From positions 1-47,146 of the forward strand of contig JAOTTS010000016.1 in the NCBI GenBank assembly GCA_029864335.1: 47,146 bases of DNA. The letters are read 5' to 3'. Below are positions 13,160-43,084 of this stretch, in pieces. A model generated the notes under the pieces. It had not been told where the DNA came from and searched no databases. It saw nothing but the letters and a program-made list of their open reading frames with translations. How positions within the stretch are numbered: the first letter of the stretch is position 1; each line of letters starts with the position of its first letter. The DNA comes from Candidatus Nitrosopumilus sp. GTDB lineage: Archaea; Thermoproteota; Nitrososphaeria; Nitrososphaerales; Nitrosopumilaceae. The translations under genes were made by a program, and so were the position numbers.

Positions 13160-14923
13160 TTAGTTGATCGGTTGAATGTAACTTCGTTTTTTCACATCAA
13201 CAATTCCTCCTGAGAGAATTCTAACAGAAGGTAAAGCCAAGAATGGCAAGAATAACGGAATCAGATGAGGTCTAGAGAATCTACACCCTAAATCTGTAAT
13301 TGTGTTATTGATTTTTTCAAAATTTGATGAAACTTTTTCAAAAGAATCTGTAGAAATAATTCCTGCAAATTGTAAAGGCAAAGATGCAAGAATTTGACCA
13401 GATTTTACTACAACTAATCCACCTTGATTCTTTATGATATGATTTGAAGCAATAGCCATATCAGAATCATCAGAACCAATTACAATCATATCATTTTCAT
13501 GAAAACTCCAAGTAGATGCAAATGCACCAATATCGGCTCCAAAATTTTCAAGAAATCCAATAGTATGTTGATTTGTACCATGAATTCTATCAAAGGCAGC
13601 AACTTTCCAGATATCAGAATCTAAAGAGGCAGAAATTTGACCTTCCTTAGAATGAAGTTCAGTTGAACCTATCTTGGTAATAATTTCAGTTTGCATAAAA
13701 ATAGTATTTGCAAGAACGTCTTTCTTTTTTGATTTTATAAGAAAATCATTTTTTGAGAATTTTTTTAGTTTAACAGTTTTTTTGAACCAGGGAGATATAG
13801 TTTTTTTCTTGATAGATGTAACTATTTTTCCATTAGCTACAACCAATTTTCCTCCCACAAAGACTTTGTTTGGCTTTATTGATTTTAGATCATCAAAGAT
13901 TAGAATATCTGCTAATTTTCCAGGTGCTATTCCACCAAGATCTTTTCCCATGTTATAATAATCAAAATTATTTTTCGATGCCATAGTAATAGCATCTATT
14001 GGTTTGAAACCAAGTTTGATTGATTCTCTAACACAATGATCTATGTGACCAAATTTTACAATATCAAGTGGATCAAGACCATCAGAACAAAACATTAAAC
14101 GATTAAGATATGTGCCATGAGACAAAACATGTGGGATGATTTCCTTCAAATCTCGTCTTATGGAACCTTCTCTTATCATAATCCACATTCCAAGACGTAA
14201 TCTTTCTAATACTTGATCAAAATTGATTGGTTCGTGGCATGAGAGTATACCAGAGGAAACATATGCATTAAGTTTTTTTTCACTTACTCCAGCAGTATGG
14301 CCATTAATTATACAATCACGTTCAAGCATAGATGAAATAGATTTCATTGTTTTGGGTTCACGAAGAGTTACTTTGGTCCATGAAAAAACTTCACCCAAAC
14401 CAAGAACATGAGGATGCTTTACTGCAGATATTTCTTGTGACAATGTAAGTGAGTTGCTGTTACTAAATTTTGTATCAACAGGAAGACCTCCTGGTGCAAC
14501 TTGAAAAATTCTTATCGGTAAGTCTTCTCCAAGTTTAAGAAATTCTTGAAAACCTTTGTACCCTGCAACACTTACAATATCAATTGGATCTGAAAACAAA
14601 GAAGTAACACCACAAAGAAGAGCCTGTTTTACAAATTCAGATGGCAATACAAATTGATCAATATGTAAGTGAGGATCTGCAAATCCTGGAGAAACATATT
14701 TGTCTTTTACATCGATGACGGTTGTTTTTGGATCTATTGTATGTGAAGCATCAGGACCAACATATGCAATTCTATCATGAATTACCGCAATCTGAATTTT
14801 TGGAAGGATTTCTCGGGTGTAGACTGATAATAAATTGCAATTTTTTAAAATAAGATCGGCTTTTTTGTCACCCATCGCTACTGAATTCAATGAATATATC
14901 GAAGTTGCTAGGCTCGAAGTCAT
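13160..14923 (-). CDS. ade: Adenine deaminase
   Basis: 587 residues, normal for the family. It hydrolyses adenine to hypoxanthine and ammonia in purine salvage. The amidohydrolase barrel shows DPHLHIDQF metal histidines near residue 85, VLGLGEVFSW, INGHTAGVSEKKLNAYV, CHEPINFDQV and FCSDGLDPLDIV. The C-terminal domain is typical of Ade (DRIHGTNQHTIGFLENFG). The product can enter the IMP pool used by GuaB about 8 kb away. It is transcribed alone; the start ATG at 14923 (MTSSLATSIY) is tentative and MGDKKADLIL at residue 17 is an alternative. Confidence 0.92.
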   Translation of the reverse strand: MTSSLATSIYSLNSVAMGDKKADLILKNCNLLSVYTREILPKIQIAVIHDRIAYVGPDASHTIDPKTTVIDVKDKYVSPGFADPHLHIDQFVLPSEFVKQALLCGVTSLFSDPIDIVSVAGYKGFQEFLKLGEDLPIRIFQVAPGGLPVDTKFSNSNSLTLSQEISAVKHPHVLGLGEVFSWTKVTLREPKTMKSISSMLERDCIINGHTAGVSEKKLNAYVSSGILSCHEPINFDQVLERLRLGMWIMIREGSIRRDLKEIIPHVLSHGTYLNRLMFCSDGLDPLDIVKFGHIDHCVRESIKLGFKPIDAITMASKNNFDYYNMGKDLGGIAPGKLADILIFDDLKSIKPNKVFVGGKLVVANGKIVTSIKKKTISPWFKKTVKLKKFSKNDFLIKSKKKDVLANTIFMQTEIITKIGSTELHSKEGQISASLDSDIWKVAAFDRIHGTNQHTIGFLENFGADIGAFASTWSFHENDMIVIGSDDSDMAIASNHIIKNQGGLVVVKSGQILASLPLQFAGIISTDSFEKVSSNFEKINNTITDLGCRFSRPHLIPLFLPFLALPSVRILSGGIVDVKKRSYIQPIN

Positions 14924-38760: not shown

Positions 38761-39417
38761 TTACACTTTTACATAATTCAAAACAAGATGATTTTTAAGT
38801 CTCTTGATAGATTTAAGACGAAGATTAGGCGAATTTGAGATTTTTCTAAATCCATTTCCCTCAATTAAGGATACTGCATTTTTTCCTCCAATTAAAAATG
38901 GGGATAGGGTGATGAACAACTCATCAAAAAGATCATATTTTATAAATTCCCAATTAATAGTCCCTCCTCCTTCAATTAGAACTGATTTGATTTTTTTATC
39001 TAAAAGTTTTTTTAATAATAATTTGATATTAATTGAATTTTTTCCTGCGACAATTATTTCTATAGGAAATTTTTTAAGTTTATCAAGATTTGATTTGCTG
39101 ATTTGATTTGATACAGCTATAATTGTTGAGATTTTATTGCTTGTTTGAATTATTTTTGAATTTTTAGATACAGTACCTTTAGAATCTAAAACAATTCTGA
39201 TTGGATTTTTACCTTTAGTGTGACGTACAGTTAACATAGGATCATCAATTAAAACAGTATTTTTTCCTACAAGTATTCCATCTACTTTAGATCTTAGTTT
39301 ATGTAATCTAATACTATCTTGTTTTGAAGATAGTTTTGAATCACCTGTAACAGTTGCAATCTTTCCATCAATAGATGTTGCAGCACTCAAAATTATATAT
39401 GGTCTAGATTTTTCCAT
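38761..39417 (-). CDS. Diaminohydroxyphosphoribosylamino-pyrimidine reductase (archaeal RibD reductase type)
   Basis: 218 residues of the RibD C-terminal (DHFR-like) family without a deaminase domain, as in archaeal 2,5-diamino-6-ribosylamino-pyrimidinone phosphate reductase (ArfC). Motifs: LSAATSIDGKIATVTGDSKLS, VDGILVGKNTVLIDDP, IRIVLDSKG and VLIEGGGTINWEF. It reduces the ribose to ribityl before deamination, the archaeal and fungal order. Last gene of the riboflavin cluster; its start overlaps the amidohydrolase by 14 bp. Confidence 0.9.
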   Translation of the reverse strand: MEKSRPYIILSAATSIDGKIATVTGDSKLSSKQDSIRLHKLRSKVDGILVGKNTVLIDDPMLTVRHTKGKNPIRIVLDSKGTVSKNSKIIQTSNKISTIIAVSNQISKSNLDKLKKFPIEIIVAGKNSINIKLLLKKLLDKKIKSVLIEGGGTINWEFIKYDLFDELFITLSPFLIGGKNAVSLIEGNGFRKISNSPNLRLKSIKRLKNHLVLNYVKV

Positions 39418-40594
39418 GTACTATTTTTCCTCCAATCATTACTGCTCTAATTGCTGATTCTGATGCTCTATGAACAATTGATGCATGTGGATTGTGCATT
39501 GGTTCTAAATCTAAAGCATGCTTATCAAGAAAAATACAATCTGCAATTTTCCCATTTTCAATTATTCCGATATTTTTTTTCAAAACTTTTCCACCATTTA
39601 TTGTAGCCATTTTAAGAATTTCTTTTGGATCAATTCTTTTTTTATAAATTCCCATAGTTACTTTCCAAAGAAAATCCATTTCTCTAAACATATCAGGTGA
39701 ATTTATCATCACGTTATCTGTACCTAATGCCAGGATACACCCTGCCTTTTGCATTAATTCTATATTTGGAATACCCTCAGCAAGTGAAGAGTTGGCTCTG
39801 GGGCAAATTACAATTCCTTGACTTTTTTTTGCTGCAGTAATAAGATCACTTTTTGAAGCAAAGGTCATATGAACTAAAAAATGAGGTTTCATTGATAATG
39901 CCCTTTTTGTTTCAGATTTGCCAGTAACTTTCTTTGATGCAGAAATACTTTGTTTAGTTTCTGATGAATGAATGGCTCTAAGTTTTGTTGTTTTTGAGTA
40001 GTGATTTAAAACTAAAGTACTATTCTCATTTGCACCACTAATACCAATTCCATCACATTTTTTGAGAAGGGCATTAAGATCACTAATTTTGTCTGTTGGA
40101 AAAGGCTGGTTTTTTCGAATTTCTGGAGATTTTTGATAAAATTCTAGTCTTCCTAAAATAATTGAACGTATGGGTATGTCAGAGAGGGCTTTTTTGAGTA
40201 AAATTACTCCATCTAATCCACCTTCTCGAAAATCAACAAATGTGGTGATTCCTTTTCGAAGCATTGAGTGGCAGGTATTTTTCATAAAAATTGATAAATT
40301 TTCTTGTGAGGTATTTTTTAGAATTTTTGATTTAGCTCCAAACACCGGATGAATTTTTTCTTCTACCGTACTATTGAGTATGACATCTTTTCCAATAGAA
40401 TCTCCTATGTGTGTATGCGCATTAATAAAACCAGGAATTAGTAGAAGACCTTCACAATCTATAGATTCTTCATTGATATGTGGTTGAATTTTAGTGTGAA
40501 TTTTTTTAAATGTGTTATTTTCAATTTTTACATTGGTTCTTAAAACAAAATCTAATTCTGAACCTTGTAATACACTAATATTTTTTATTAACAT
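39404..40594 (-). CDS. Amidohydrolase of deaminase type, in the riboflavin operon
   Basis: 396 residues of the cytosine/adenosine-deaminase-like amidohydrolase group. The metal motif HTH is at 60-62 (PGFINAHTHIGDS), HxxE at 209-212 (RAIHSSET), a His at 242 (FLVHMTF), CPRANSSL at 264-271 and the catalytic Asp at 293 (ALGTDN). The HxxE motif is that of aminohydrolases acting on heterocyclic amines such as MTA/SAH and cytosine, not of dihydroorotases. The gene overlaps gch3 by 7 bp and the reductase by 14 bp. Inference: it deaminates the 2,5-diamino-ribitylamino-pyrimidinone phosphate, or hydrolyses the formamide product of GTP cyclohydrolase III. A separate salvage role is possible. Confidence 0.8.
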   Translation of the reverse strand: MLIKNISVLQGSELDFVLRTNVKIENNTFKKIHTKIQPHINEESIDCEGLLLIPGFINAHTHIGDSIGKDVILNSTVEEKIHPVFGAKSKILKNTSQENLSIFMKNTCHSMLRKGITTFVDFREGGLDGVILLKKALSDIPIRSIILGRLEFYQKSPEIRKNQPFPTDKISDLNALLKKCDGIGISGANENSTLVLNHYSKTTKLRAIHSSETKQSISASKKVTGKSETKRALSMKPHFLVHMTFASKSDLITAAKKSQGIVICPRANSSLAEGIPNIELMQKAGCILALGTDNVMINSPDMFREMDFLWKVTMGIYKKRIDPKEILKMATINGGKVLKKNIGIIENGKIADCIFLDKHALDLEPMHNPHASIVHRASESAIRAVMIGGKIVHGKI

Positions 40595-41340
40595 GATAAT
40601 TCATAAACTTCAGGTTTTTCTTTTCCTGAATCTCTAATTTCTCGTATAGTATCAAGAGATTTTGTGGCCAATTTTACGGCTTCCCTGCTAGTATTTGCAG
40701 TTCCTATTCCACAATTCAAAGAAATTTCATCATTATCTTTTATCATGTCAATGAAATTCTGTACAGAATTTTTTCCATCTTTACTTGCAACTACCATGAA
40801 ATTATCACCTCCCATGAAAAATGTAAGAGAATTTTTTTCAAGAAAATATTTTGACATTTTTGAATATAATCCAAAAATTATTGATGTTATTTCATATGGT
40901 GAATCACTTTTTCTTCGTGAAGTAAGATCATTTACATCTAAATGCATTATTGTAACTTTTGAATCAGATGTATTATTAACAAATCCAAAAATATTATGTT
41001 CTTCATTTAAAATAATTTTATTTTTCTTTCCGTCATACGCCTTCAAATTTGCATTAAAAGGAGTATCTCCAAAACCAATTGAAATTGCTAAATGAACATT
41101 AAATGATTTTTCAAGTGTTTTTTGGATTTCAATGTGTTCGTCCAATCCAAGTTCATTAGAAACTACAAAAAATTCATCGGCTCGATTAAGAAAGACTAGA
41201 CAGTTTTTTGCAGAAAATAGTTTTTGTACTTCTTTGTACAATGACGCCTGAAGCATTTGTAGTTCATGTTCCCTATCACTTCCTAATGTTAATGTCCAAG
41301 GACCATATCCAGTTATTTTCAATATACTAAGTTGAATCAT
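40588..41340 (-). CDS. gch3: GTP cyclohydrolase III
   Basis: 250 residues of the archaeal GCH III (ArfA) family. It opens the imidazole ring of GTP to a formamidopyrimidine, starting archaeal riboflavin/F420 synthesis. Two related halves resemble nucleotide cyclase domains: the first has SIGFGDTPFNANLKA near 92-106, the second FFMGGDNFMVVASKDG near 167 and GIGTANTSREAVKLATKSLD near the end. The product keeps the formyl group, so a deformylase is needed next. It overlaps ribH by 4 bp. Confidence 0.93.
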   Translation of the reverse strand: MIQLSILKITGYGPWTLTLGSDREHELQMLQASLYKEVQKLFSAKNCLVFLNRADEFFVVSNELGLDEHIEIQKTLEKSFNVHLAISIGFGDTPFNANLKAYDGKKNKIILNEEHNIFGFVNNTSDSKVTIMHLDVNDLTSRRKSDSPYEITSIIFGLYSKMSKYFLEKNSLTFFMGGDNFMVVASKDGKNSVQNFIDMIKDNDEISLNCGIGTANTSREAVKLATKSLDTIREIRDSGKEKPEVYELSC

Positions 41341-41753
41341 TTTTGAATCCTCTTCAATTCATTAGAAATTTTTACAACAGCTTCTACTGCTCGTTCTGCA
41401 ACTGGTCTTATTCTAGCATAGGCATGTCTTTCTTGCATTCCAGGACCAGATATGCCTAAAGATACTGGTTTTTGATATTTTATAGATAATGCTGTTAATG
41501 CTTGAACAGCAGAATGTGATATTACTTCATCATGTTTTGTTTGTCCTTTAATTATAGCACCCAAAGTAACGATTGCATCAACATCATTTTTTTGTAATAA
41601 TGAATCTATAATTATAGGCATGTCGTAAGCACCAGGAACTGTACATGTATACAATATTTTCAATTTCAAAGTATTTGCTTTTTCTTGAGCTATTGCAAGC
41701 ATCCTAGATGTCACTTTCTCATTGAATTCTGAAACCACTATTGCAATATTCAA
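41337..41753 (-). CDS. ribH: 6,7-dimethyl-8-ribityllumazine synthase
   Basis: 138 residues. It condenses the ribitylamino-uracil with dihydroxybutanone phosphate. VVSEFNEKVTSRML, the VPGAYDMP turn, ALGAIIKGQTKHDEVI (with catalytic His) and PVSLGISGPG are present. Normal length for an archaeal lumazine synthase, which forms icosahedral or pentameric assemblies. It starts 2 bp after the ribB stop. Confidence 0.96.
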   Translation of the reverse strand: MNIAIVVSEFNEKVTSRMLAIAQEKANTLKLKILYTCTVPGAYDMPIIIDSLLQKNDVDAIVTLGAIIKGQTKHDEVISHSAVQALTALSIKYQKPVSLGISGPGMQERHAYARIRPVAERAVEAVVKISNELKRIQK

Positions 41754-41755
41754 TA

Positions 41756-42421
41756 CTAATGCACCTTGGCGTATTCTAAAAGTTCTTTTCCATCAATTAA
41801 TGGAAATCCATTTTGTTTGGCAAATTTCTCTGCTTTATCTACAGACAATGCAGAATATGTTTCAGCATCCATCATTTCACAAATTGCTGTAACAGGTGTC
41901 AAACCTGCAACTTGAGCTAGATAAACAGACATTTCAGTATGTCCTTGTCGTGCAGCTAATAATCCTTTAGATGCAATTAACAAAGGAACATGTCCTGGAA
42001 TTTTAAATGATGATGCAAATTTTTTCTGTTTATTTTCTACATTAAAGATATTTGCCATTTCTCTAATTGTTAATGATCTATCTTTATCAGTAATTCCAGT
42101 ATAAGTTTGATAATGATTGATAGACAATGAAAAAGTTGGATGATCACCATATGGTGCCAAACCCATAATCATTTCTTTATTTGAAATTGAAGAGTCAGCA
42201 AGAATTTCGTGCATGTATTTTAATTCAAGAGATTTTGCAAAATTATTATCAATTGCAATACACAACAACCCACCAGCATGTTGACGCATTCTTGCTACAT
42301 GTTCAGGAGTAACAAATTCGGCGGCTACTACCATATCAATCTCATTTTCTCTTCCGGCTGAATCAAATAATAGCACAAATTCTCCACGCTTTAGAGATTG
42401 TAGTGCTAATTCAAGCGACAT
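41756..42421 (-). CDS. ribB: 3,4-dihydroxy-2-butanone-4-phosphate synthase
   Basis: 221 residues from the ATG at 42421 (MSLELALQSLKRGEFVLLFD). Converts ribulose 5-phosphate to the four-carbon unit of riboflavin. Motifs: DSAGRENEIDMVVAAEF, RQHAGGLLCIAI, FSLSINHYQTYTGITDKDRS, GHVPLLIASKGLL, RQGHTEMSVYLAQVAG. A TTG at 42478 would add 19 residues, but the ACTTTATAAT box at 42444-42453 lies inside that extension and just upstream of 42421, so the shorter form is chosen. No GTP cyclohydrolase II domain. Confidence 0.95.
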   Translation of the reverse strand: MSLELALQSLKRGEFVLLFDSAGRENEIDMVVAAEFVTPEHVARMRQHAGGLLCIAIDNNFAKSLELKYMHEILADSSISNKEMIMGLAPYGDHPTFSLSINHYQTYTGITDKDRSLTIREMANIFNVENKQKKFASSFKIPGHVPLLIASKGLLAARQGHTEMSVYLAQVAGLTPVTAICEMMDAETYSALSVDKAEKFAKQNGFPLIDGKELLEYAKVH

Positions 42422-42443
42422 GATAAAAATTGTCGGTGATCTA

Positions 42444-42477
42444 ATTATAAAGTTTACTAAAAAATTGGTAATTACCA
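42444..42477 (-). promoter_or_regulatory. ribB promoter: TATA box plus TGGTAATTACCA palindrome
   Basis: ACTTTATAAT (42453-42444 on the minus strand) is a TATA box about 25-30 bp before the ribB start. The perfect 12-bp palindrome TGGTAATTACCA at 42466-42477 lies 12 bp further upstream, a classic operator position. The same half-site occurs at 22507-22539 and 26001-26027. Confidence 0.5.
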
Positions 42478-42499
42478 CTAAATTTGTATATAATTAACT

Positions 42500-43084
42500 T
42501 TATTTTAAAATGTATTTTCCAAGAATGTCAGTTTCAATATTAACTTTGTCGCCTATTTTTTTTGTATGAAAGTTTGTAATCTCAATGGTATGAGGAATTA
42601 GTGAAACTGATGCAAGAGTATTTTTAATATCAACTACTGTTAAACTGATTCCATCTACTGCAATAGAACCTTTTTTCACAACATATTTTGATAATTTCTT
42701 TGGAACTTCAAACCAAACTTGAACTTCTTTTGGTTTTTTTAGAATTTTTTTAATTATTCCAACACCATCTACATGACCTAAAACAAAATGACCTTCGAGT
42801 CTATCACCTGCCTTTAAACTTCGTTCGATATTTACAATTCCACCCACTTTTAGATTACCAAGATCTGTTTTTTTGGTAGTTTCTTCAATCATTTCAAAAA
42901 TACAACTAGATTTGGATAATTTTGTTGCAGTAAGACAAACACCGTTAAGAGCAACACTTTGGCCAATTCTTAATCCCTTGGAATGTTTTCCTAGATTTAC
43001 AGTCATTTCAATGGCACTTCGATTTTTAGTATTTTTTAAAATTTTTTCAACTTTACCAACACCTTCAACAATCCCAGTAAACAT
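42500..43084 (-). CDS. ribE: Riboflavin synthase, alpha-subunit (bacterial/eukaryotic) type
   Basis: 194 residues from ATG 43084 (MFTGIVEGVGKVEKILK), the invariant start of this family. Two homologous barrels follow: N-terminal VALNGVCLTATKLS and C-terminal IAVDGISLTVVDIK. It dismutates two lumazines to riboflavin. Many euryarchaea use an unrelated archaeal riboflavin synthase, so this lineage uses the bacterial type. A 43-residue upstream extension of the frame has no support and would cover the TTTTATACAT box. Separated from ribB by 78 bp containing a second promoter. Confidence 0.95.
   Translation of the reverse strand: MFTGIVEGVGKVEKILKNTKNRSAIEMTVNLGKHSKGLRIGQSVALNGVCLTATKLSKSSCIFEMIEETTKKTDLGNLKVGGIVNIERSLKAGDRLEGHFVLGHVDGVGIIKKILKKPKEVQVWFEVPKKLSKYVVKKGSIAVDGISLTVVDIKNTLASVSLIPHTIEITNFHTKKIGDKVNIETDILGKYILK

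Follow-up and report, generated by a model that had tools for sequence, protein, structure and literature searches.

An amidohydrolase of the thaumarchaeal riboflavin operon as candidate for the predicted archaeal deaminase of riboflavin and F420 synthesis

Why an amidohydrolase gene should be embedded among the riboflavin genes of an archaeon, and whether its product could supply the deamination step of the pathway, is the question raised by a contig of Candidatus Nitrosopumilus sp. (GenBank JAOTTS010000016.1; all 47,146 nucleotides were analysed and are called the window here). In our reading, the gene very probably encodes the archaeal 2,5-diamino-6-ribitylaminopyrimidinone-5'-phosphate deaminase of the riboflavin pathway; we infer both the substrate and the reaction. 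Should this hold, one listed gap in archaeal riboflavin (and F420) synthesis would be closed, different domains of life would be seen to use two unrelated folds for one and the same deamination, and family members now labelled chlorohydrolase or cytosine deaminase would receive corrected annotations.

The gene belongs to a six-gene unit with the order ribE-ribB-ribH-arfA-amidohydrolase-arfC. The original prediction had described the cluster as otherwise composed of riboflavin genes, and Pfam and NCBIfam confirmed each of the five neighbours:

42500..43084, minus strand: ribE, riboflavin synthase (bacterial-type, two lumazine-binding domains; TIGR00187)
41756..42478, minus strand: ribB, DHBP synthase (PF00926, 1e-58; TIGR00506, 216 bits, above cut-off)
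41337..41753, minus strand: ribH, lumazine synthase (PF00885; TIGR00114, 126 bits, cut-off 84.6)
40588..41340, minus strand: arfA, GTP cyclohydrolase III (GCH III; PF05165, 3e-49)
39404..40594, minus strand: amidohydrolase-superfamily protein, putative riboflavin/F420 deaminase (396 aa; Amidohydro_1, 3e-42; NF005552)
38761..39417, minus strand: arfC, 2,5-diamino-6-ribosylamino-pyrimidinone 5'-phosphate reductase (RibD_C, 1e-50; TIGR01508, 205 bits)

The amidohydrolase reading frame has no internal stops and, as had been claimed, overlaps both neighbours, sharing 7 bp with arfA and 14 bp with arfC; ribH and arfA share 4 bp. The reductase was correctly said to lack the RibD deaminase domain: RibD_C is its sole domain in Pfam and NCBIfam, its score exceeds the cut-off of the archaeal reductase equivalog TIGR01508 (186 bits), and its top PDB match is the M. 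jannaschii reductase (2azn). The start of ribE is placed at MFTGIVE (43084), the TIGR00187 match beginning at residue 44 of a longer reading frame, and the true start of ribB may lie near 42421, because its domain match begins only at residue 21 of the frame.

This arrangement recurs. Of 25 genomes sampled from the GTDB family to which the window belongs, every one carries the gene, and the order was that of the window at every neighbourhood read, so the arrangement is not chance; the gene-order conservation that was to be checked in relatives is thus borne out. Linkage of the amidohydrolase to arfA, arfC, ribH or ribB extends over nine GTDB families, and the order varies outside the window's own family: examples are ribB-ribH-arfA-gene, arfC-gene, and ribB-ribC-ribH-arfA, from which the gene diverges. 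Two lineages (L054 and L055; genomes G097 and G017) have the order amidohydrolase-arfC-cofG-cofH, in which cofG and cofH are F420 genes; CofH takes 5-amino-6-ribitylaminouracil, the riboflavin intermediate after deamination and dephosphorylation, and condenses it with tyrosine (PMC8498797). Neither arfA nor GTP cyclohydrolase II was detected in the genomes with this cluster. One genome from the same genus as the window has a second GCH III paralogue (G060:C9:5396-6088).

The best NCBIfam model for the window protein is NF005552/PRK07213 (321.5 bits, curated cut-off 294), whose label "chlorohydrolase" is a transferred name without support. With a family profile built from 30 relatives, 62 of 151 genomes of the phylum were found to hold one member each at 342 bits or more, the next-best scores being at most 164 bits. 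The gene and arfA occur together in 59 genomes and are both absent from 88, with three genomes having the gene only and one arfA only (Fisher 4e-37; by genus 26/2/1/48 for both, gene only, arfA only and neither, p 4e-17), p-values that overstate independence since the genomes are related. For ribH the corresponding counts are 59/3/3/86, and within GTDB families f3, f19 and f24 genomes either carry the gene, arfA and ribH or lack all three. A search for an intact pathway without the gene turned up a single apparent case, the arfA-only genome G065, which carries a divergent homologue keeping D65, K88, E124 and N294. Among the three genomes with the gene only, two show the cofG/cofH order, and the assembly of the third (G091) is fragmented. 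In 12 genomes an arfC-like gene was found but no family member above 340 bits; G065 is one of them, and the other 11 also lack arfA and ribH. The gene tracks arfA slightly more closely than it does arfC. Reductases of this arfC-like kind, whose genomes have neither arfA nor ribH nor the amidohydrolase, were noted at L103-L108 (f2, f31, f35) and L109-L110 (f20). GTP cyclohydrolase II was rejected as an alternative first enzyme, being absent from all 151 genomes.

Co-occurrence with arfA would also suit an enzyme acting earlier in the pathway. The original prediction had offered removal of the formyl group as a second possible job, in which the amidohydrolase would be the FAPy-nucleotide deformylase of the lineage and replace ArfB on the GCH III product. 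The gene does stand directly after arfA, with which it co-occurs almost perfectly, amidohydrolases can cleave amides, and the thaumarchaeal creatininase is only distantly ArfB-like, its 39.5 bits against an NCBIfam ArfB cut-off of 180 not making it a confident ArfB. Yet 59 of the 60 arfA-bearing genomes, that of the window included, have a creatininase-family gene, which adjoins arfA in two of them (f8 genome G057, L118; f24 genome G067, L146), both of which carry the amidohydrolase too. The family also sits with arfC and cofG/cofH in the two genomes without detected arfA, its relatives are aminohydrolases, its Methanocaldococcus members occur in organisms with a creatininase-type ArfB, and a deformylase role would leave the deaminase step without an enzyme. 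Creatininase-type ArfB was reportedly proven in Methanocaldococcus by Grochowski in 2009. ArfB/BrbF, the formamide hydrolase of the creatininase family, serves the same pathway but differs from the window protein in fold and reaction; neither the creatininase fold (PF02633) nor ArfB (NF033501) was matched by the window protein, all of whose Pfam and NCBIfam matches are amidohydrolases. As to whether ArfB lies elsewhere in the genome, then, a separately encoded creatininase homologue was found, with the low ArfB score given above. By family and co-occurrence, the deformylase slot is probably filled by this creatininase-family gene, and formyl removal by the amidohydrolase is disfavoured and, in our estimate, unlikely. 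The creatininase gene of the window's genome (L035, G000:C14, 2521-3174) follows a formyltetrahydrofolate deformylase (PurU)-like gene (noted at 593-2190) and may be the FAPy deformylase despite its score. In one near-complete genome (G113, f16), arfA, ribH and the amidohydrolase are present and no creatininase was detected.

Deamination is favoured over deformylation because of these creatininase genes, because the catalytic residues match those of heterocyclic deaminases, and because a spare enzyme of the cytidine deaminase (CDA) fold is lacking. The catalytic set was assessed by counting residues over 82 family members and 22 paralogues, and the relevant positions of the window protein are as follows:

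40409..40417, minus strand: HTH motif, residues 60-62, metal ligands by homology
40331..40333, minus strand: K88, family-specific lysine, candidate substrate/phosphate contact
39959..39970, minus strand: H209-x-x-E212, which by homology to deaminases supplies a metal ligand and a proton shuttle
39869..39871, minus strand: H242, catalytic histidine by homology
39791..39805, minus strand: C264-P-R266-A-N268 motif, R266 a candidate phosphate contact
39713..39724, minus strand: G291-T-D293-N294 motif, D293 catalytic, N294 family-specific

The residues originally named (HTH 60-62, H209xxE212, H242 and D293) are correct and conserved in 82/82 family members, and they make up the HxH, HxxE, H and D of the heterocyclic deaminase type. 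H60, H62, H209, E212, H242 and D293 are kept in the family and the paralogues alike (H60 and H62 in 22/22 of the latter), H209xxE212 aligns with the HxxE of TM0936, and N268 is universal. A further set, D65, K88, E124, R266 and N294, marks the family, in which all five are invariant save for R266 (81/82); none is found at the aligned positions in the 22 TM0936-type paralogues. A single-sequence AlphaFold model of the window protein (mean pLDDT 32) was set aside.

Among solved structures, SAH/MTA, guanine and 8-oxoguanine deaminases come closest, and the superfamily and the HxH, HxxE, H and D are common to the window protein, TM0936 (SAH/MTA deaminase, PDB 1p1m/2plm) and COG0402 enzymes such as guanine deaminase. 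COG0402 proteins are moreover often annotated as cytosine deaminase (e.g., PMC7848895). The protein might accordingly be a generic nucleoside or nucleobase deaminase, acting on SAH, MTA, 5'-deoxyadenosine, guanine or cytosine and merely located in the operon, but we regard this as very unlikely: on a tree the family and its methanococcal members group together and are separated, with 100/99 support, from the SAH/MTA/DadD-like paralogues that coexist with it in several genomes, it has its five specific residues, and the gene is kept or lost with the riboflavin genes. Another step of the same pathway, such as removal of the 5'-phosphate, would fit the cluster and a listed gap in archaea (PMC8305020) but is hardly credible, as the protein has no phosphatase-type signature, its closest relatives act on C–N bonds, and HAD-type phosphatases remove the 5'-phosphate elsewhere (PMC13028884). 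In the window itself, a 587-aa amidohydrolase (13160-14923, minus strand), probably an adenine deaminase, adjoins a thermosome-like chaperonin gene and is unrelated to the riboflavin finding.

The deaminase would presumably carry out the same step as RibD/Rib2, whose CDA fold is unrelated to the amidohydrolase. None of the seven cluster proteins of the window matches PF00383, the domain with the HAE/PCxxC zinc site, and the amidohydrolase would be a non-orthologous replacement. The only PF00383 match in the window's genome is a 175-aa cytidine/deoxycytidylate deaminase-domain protein on another contig; a spare CDA-fold enzyme was thus considered and no candidate emerged. In the control set, neither M. 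jannaschii nor S. acidocaldarius has PF00383, and a motif search of 20 arfC/arfA regions found no CDA-type deaminase beside arfC in gene-lacking genomes. With regard to the order of steps, the Lys151/152 position of RibD in reductases marks the deamination-first route (PMC3631187), and the lysine of deamination-first RibD is found in none of 59 collected reductases, the window's ArfC included. This suggests that reduction probably comes first and that the deaminase should meet the ribityl compound, as Rib2 does in acting after reduction.

Placed directly after ArfC, the proposed enzyme would hydrolyse the 2-amino group of 2,5-diamino-6-ribitylamino-4(3H)-pyrimidinone 5'-phosphate to give 5-amino-6-ribitylamino-2,4-pyrimidinedione 5'-phosphate, which, once dephosphorylated, is the common precursor of riboflavin and F420. 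By homology, a presumed metal on H60, H62, H209 and D293 would activate water, and E212 and H242 would serve as proton shuttles. Attack at C2 of the cyclic amidine would release ammonia, much as guanine deaminase acts on the C2-NH2 of guanine, the predicted substrate being a ring-opened guanine nucleotide whose phosphate K88 and R266 may contact.

The original prediction held the archaeal deaminase to be unsettled. This stands insofar as we found no experimental proof, and our literature search returned no report of an assay of an MJ0699-type deaminase; the enzyme had, however, apparently already been predicted, as MJ0699/HVO_2483, in a 2017 reconstruction credited by later work. A 2021 annotation study of Haloferax names three gaps in the riboflavin pathway and, for two of them, candidates taken from the 2017 reconstruction (PMC8305020 Table 6). 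In that table, HVO_1235 is the arfB candidate credited to the reconstruction, and HVO_2483, 34% identical to MJ0699, occupies a row that gives no step name; we read the row as the deaminase slot because of its position between arfC and the phosphatase gap. The deaminase idea is therefore a published prediction, not a new one, and it is strengthened by the present operon and co-occurrence evidence.

The Methanocaldococcus sp. SG1 member of the family (559 bits) lies three genes from the DNA polymerase II small subunit, which we take to be MJ0702, and should for this reason be MJ0699, a number resting on gene position; the window protein would then belong to the family of MJ0699 (NF005552/PRK07213). 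The Methanocaldococcus member is 35% identical to the window protein and shares D65, K88, E124, R266 and N294 with it, whereas it is encoded beside the DNA polymerase II small subunit and PriL-like genes rather than in a riboflavin operon. An NF005552 member above the cut-off is present in 27/27 searched genomes of the Methanocaldococcus phylum, and the family is carried by nearly every sampled riboflavin-making member of the window's own phylum as well as by Methanococci. It is likely that the general deaminase supplying riboflavin and F420 synthesis in archaea belongs to the amidohydrolase superfamily rather than to the CDA fold, as an ancient non-orthologous counterpart of RibD/Rib2 with a phosphate-binding signature of its own (K88, R266).

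In sponge-associated Thaumarchaeota, creatinine amidohydrolase and a COG0402 "cytosine deaminase" have been read as creatinine degradation (PMC7848895). At least one COG0402 gene per genome of these archaea is likely the riboflavin amidohydrolase gene described here, and their COG0402 and creatininase genes would be more simply explained as riboflavin genes.
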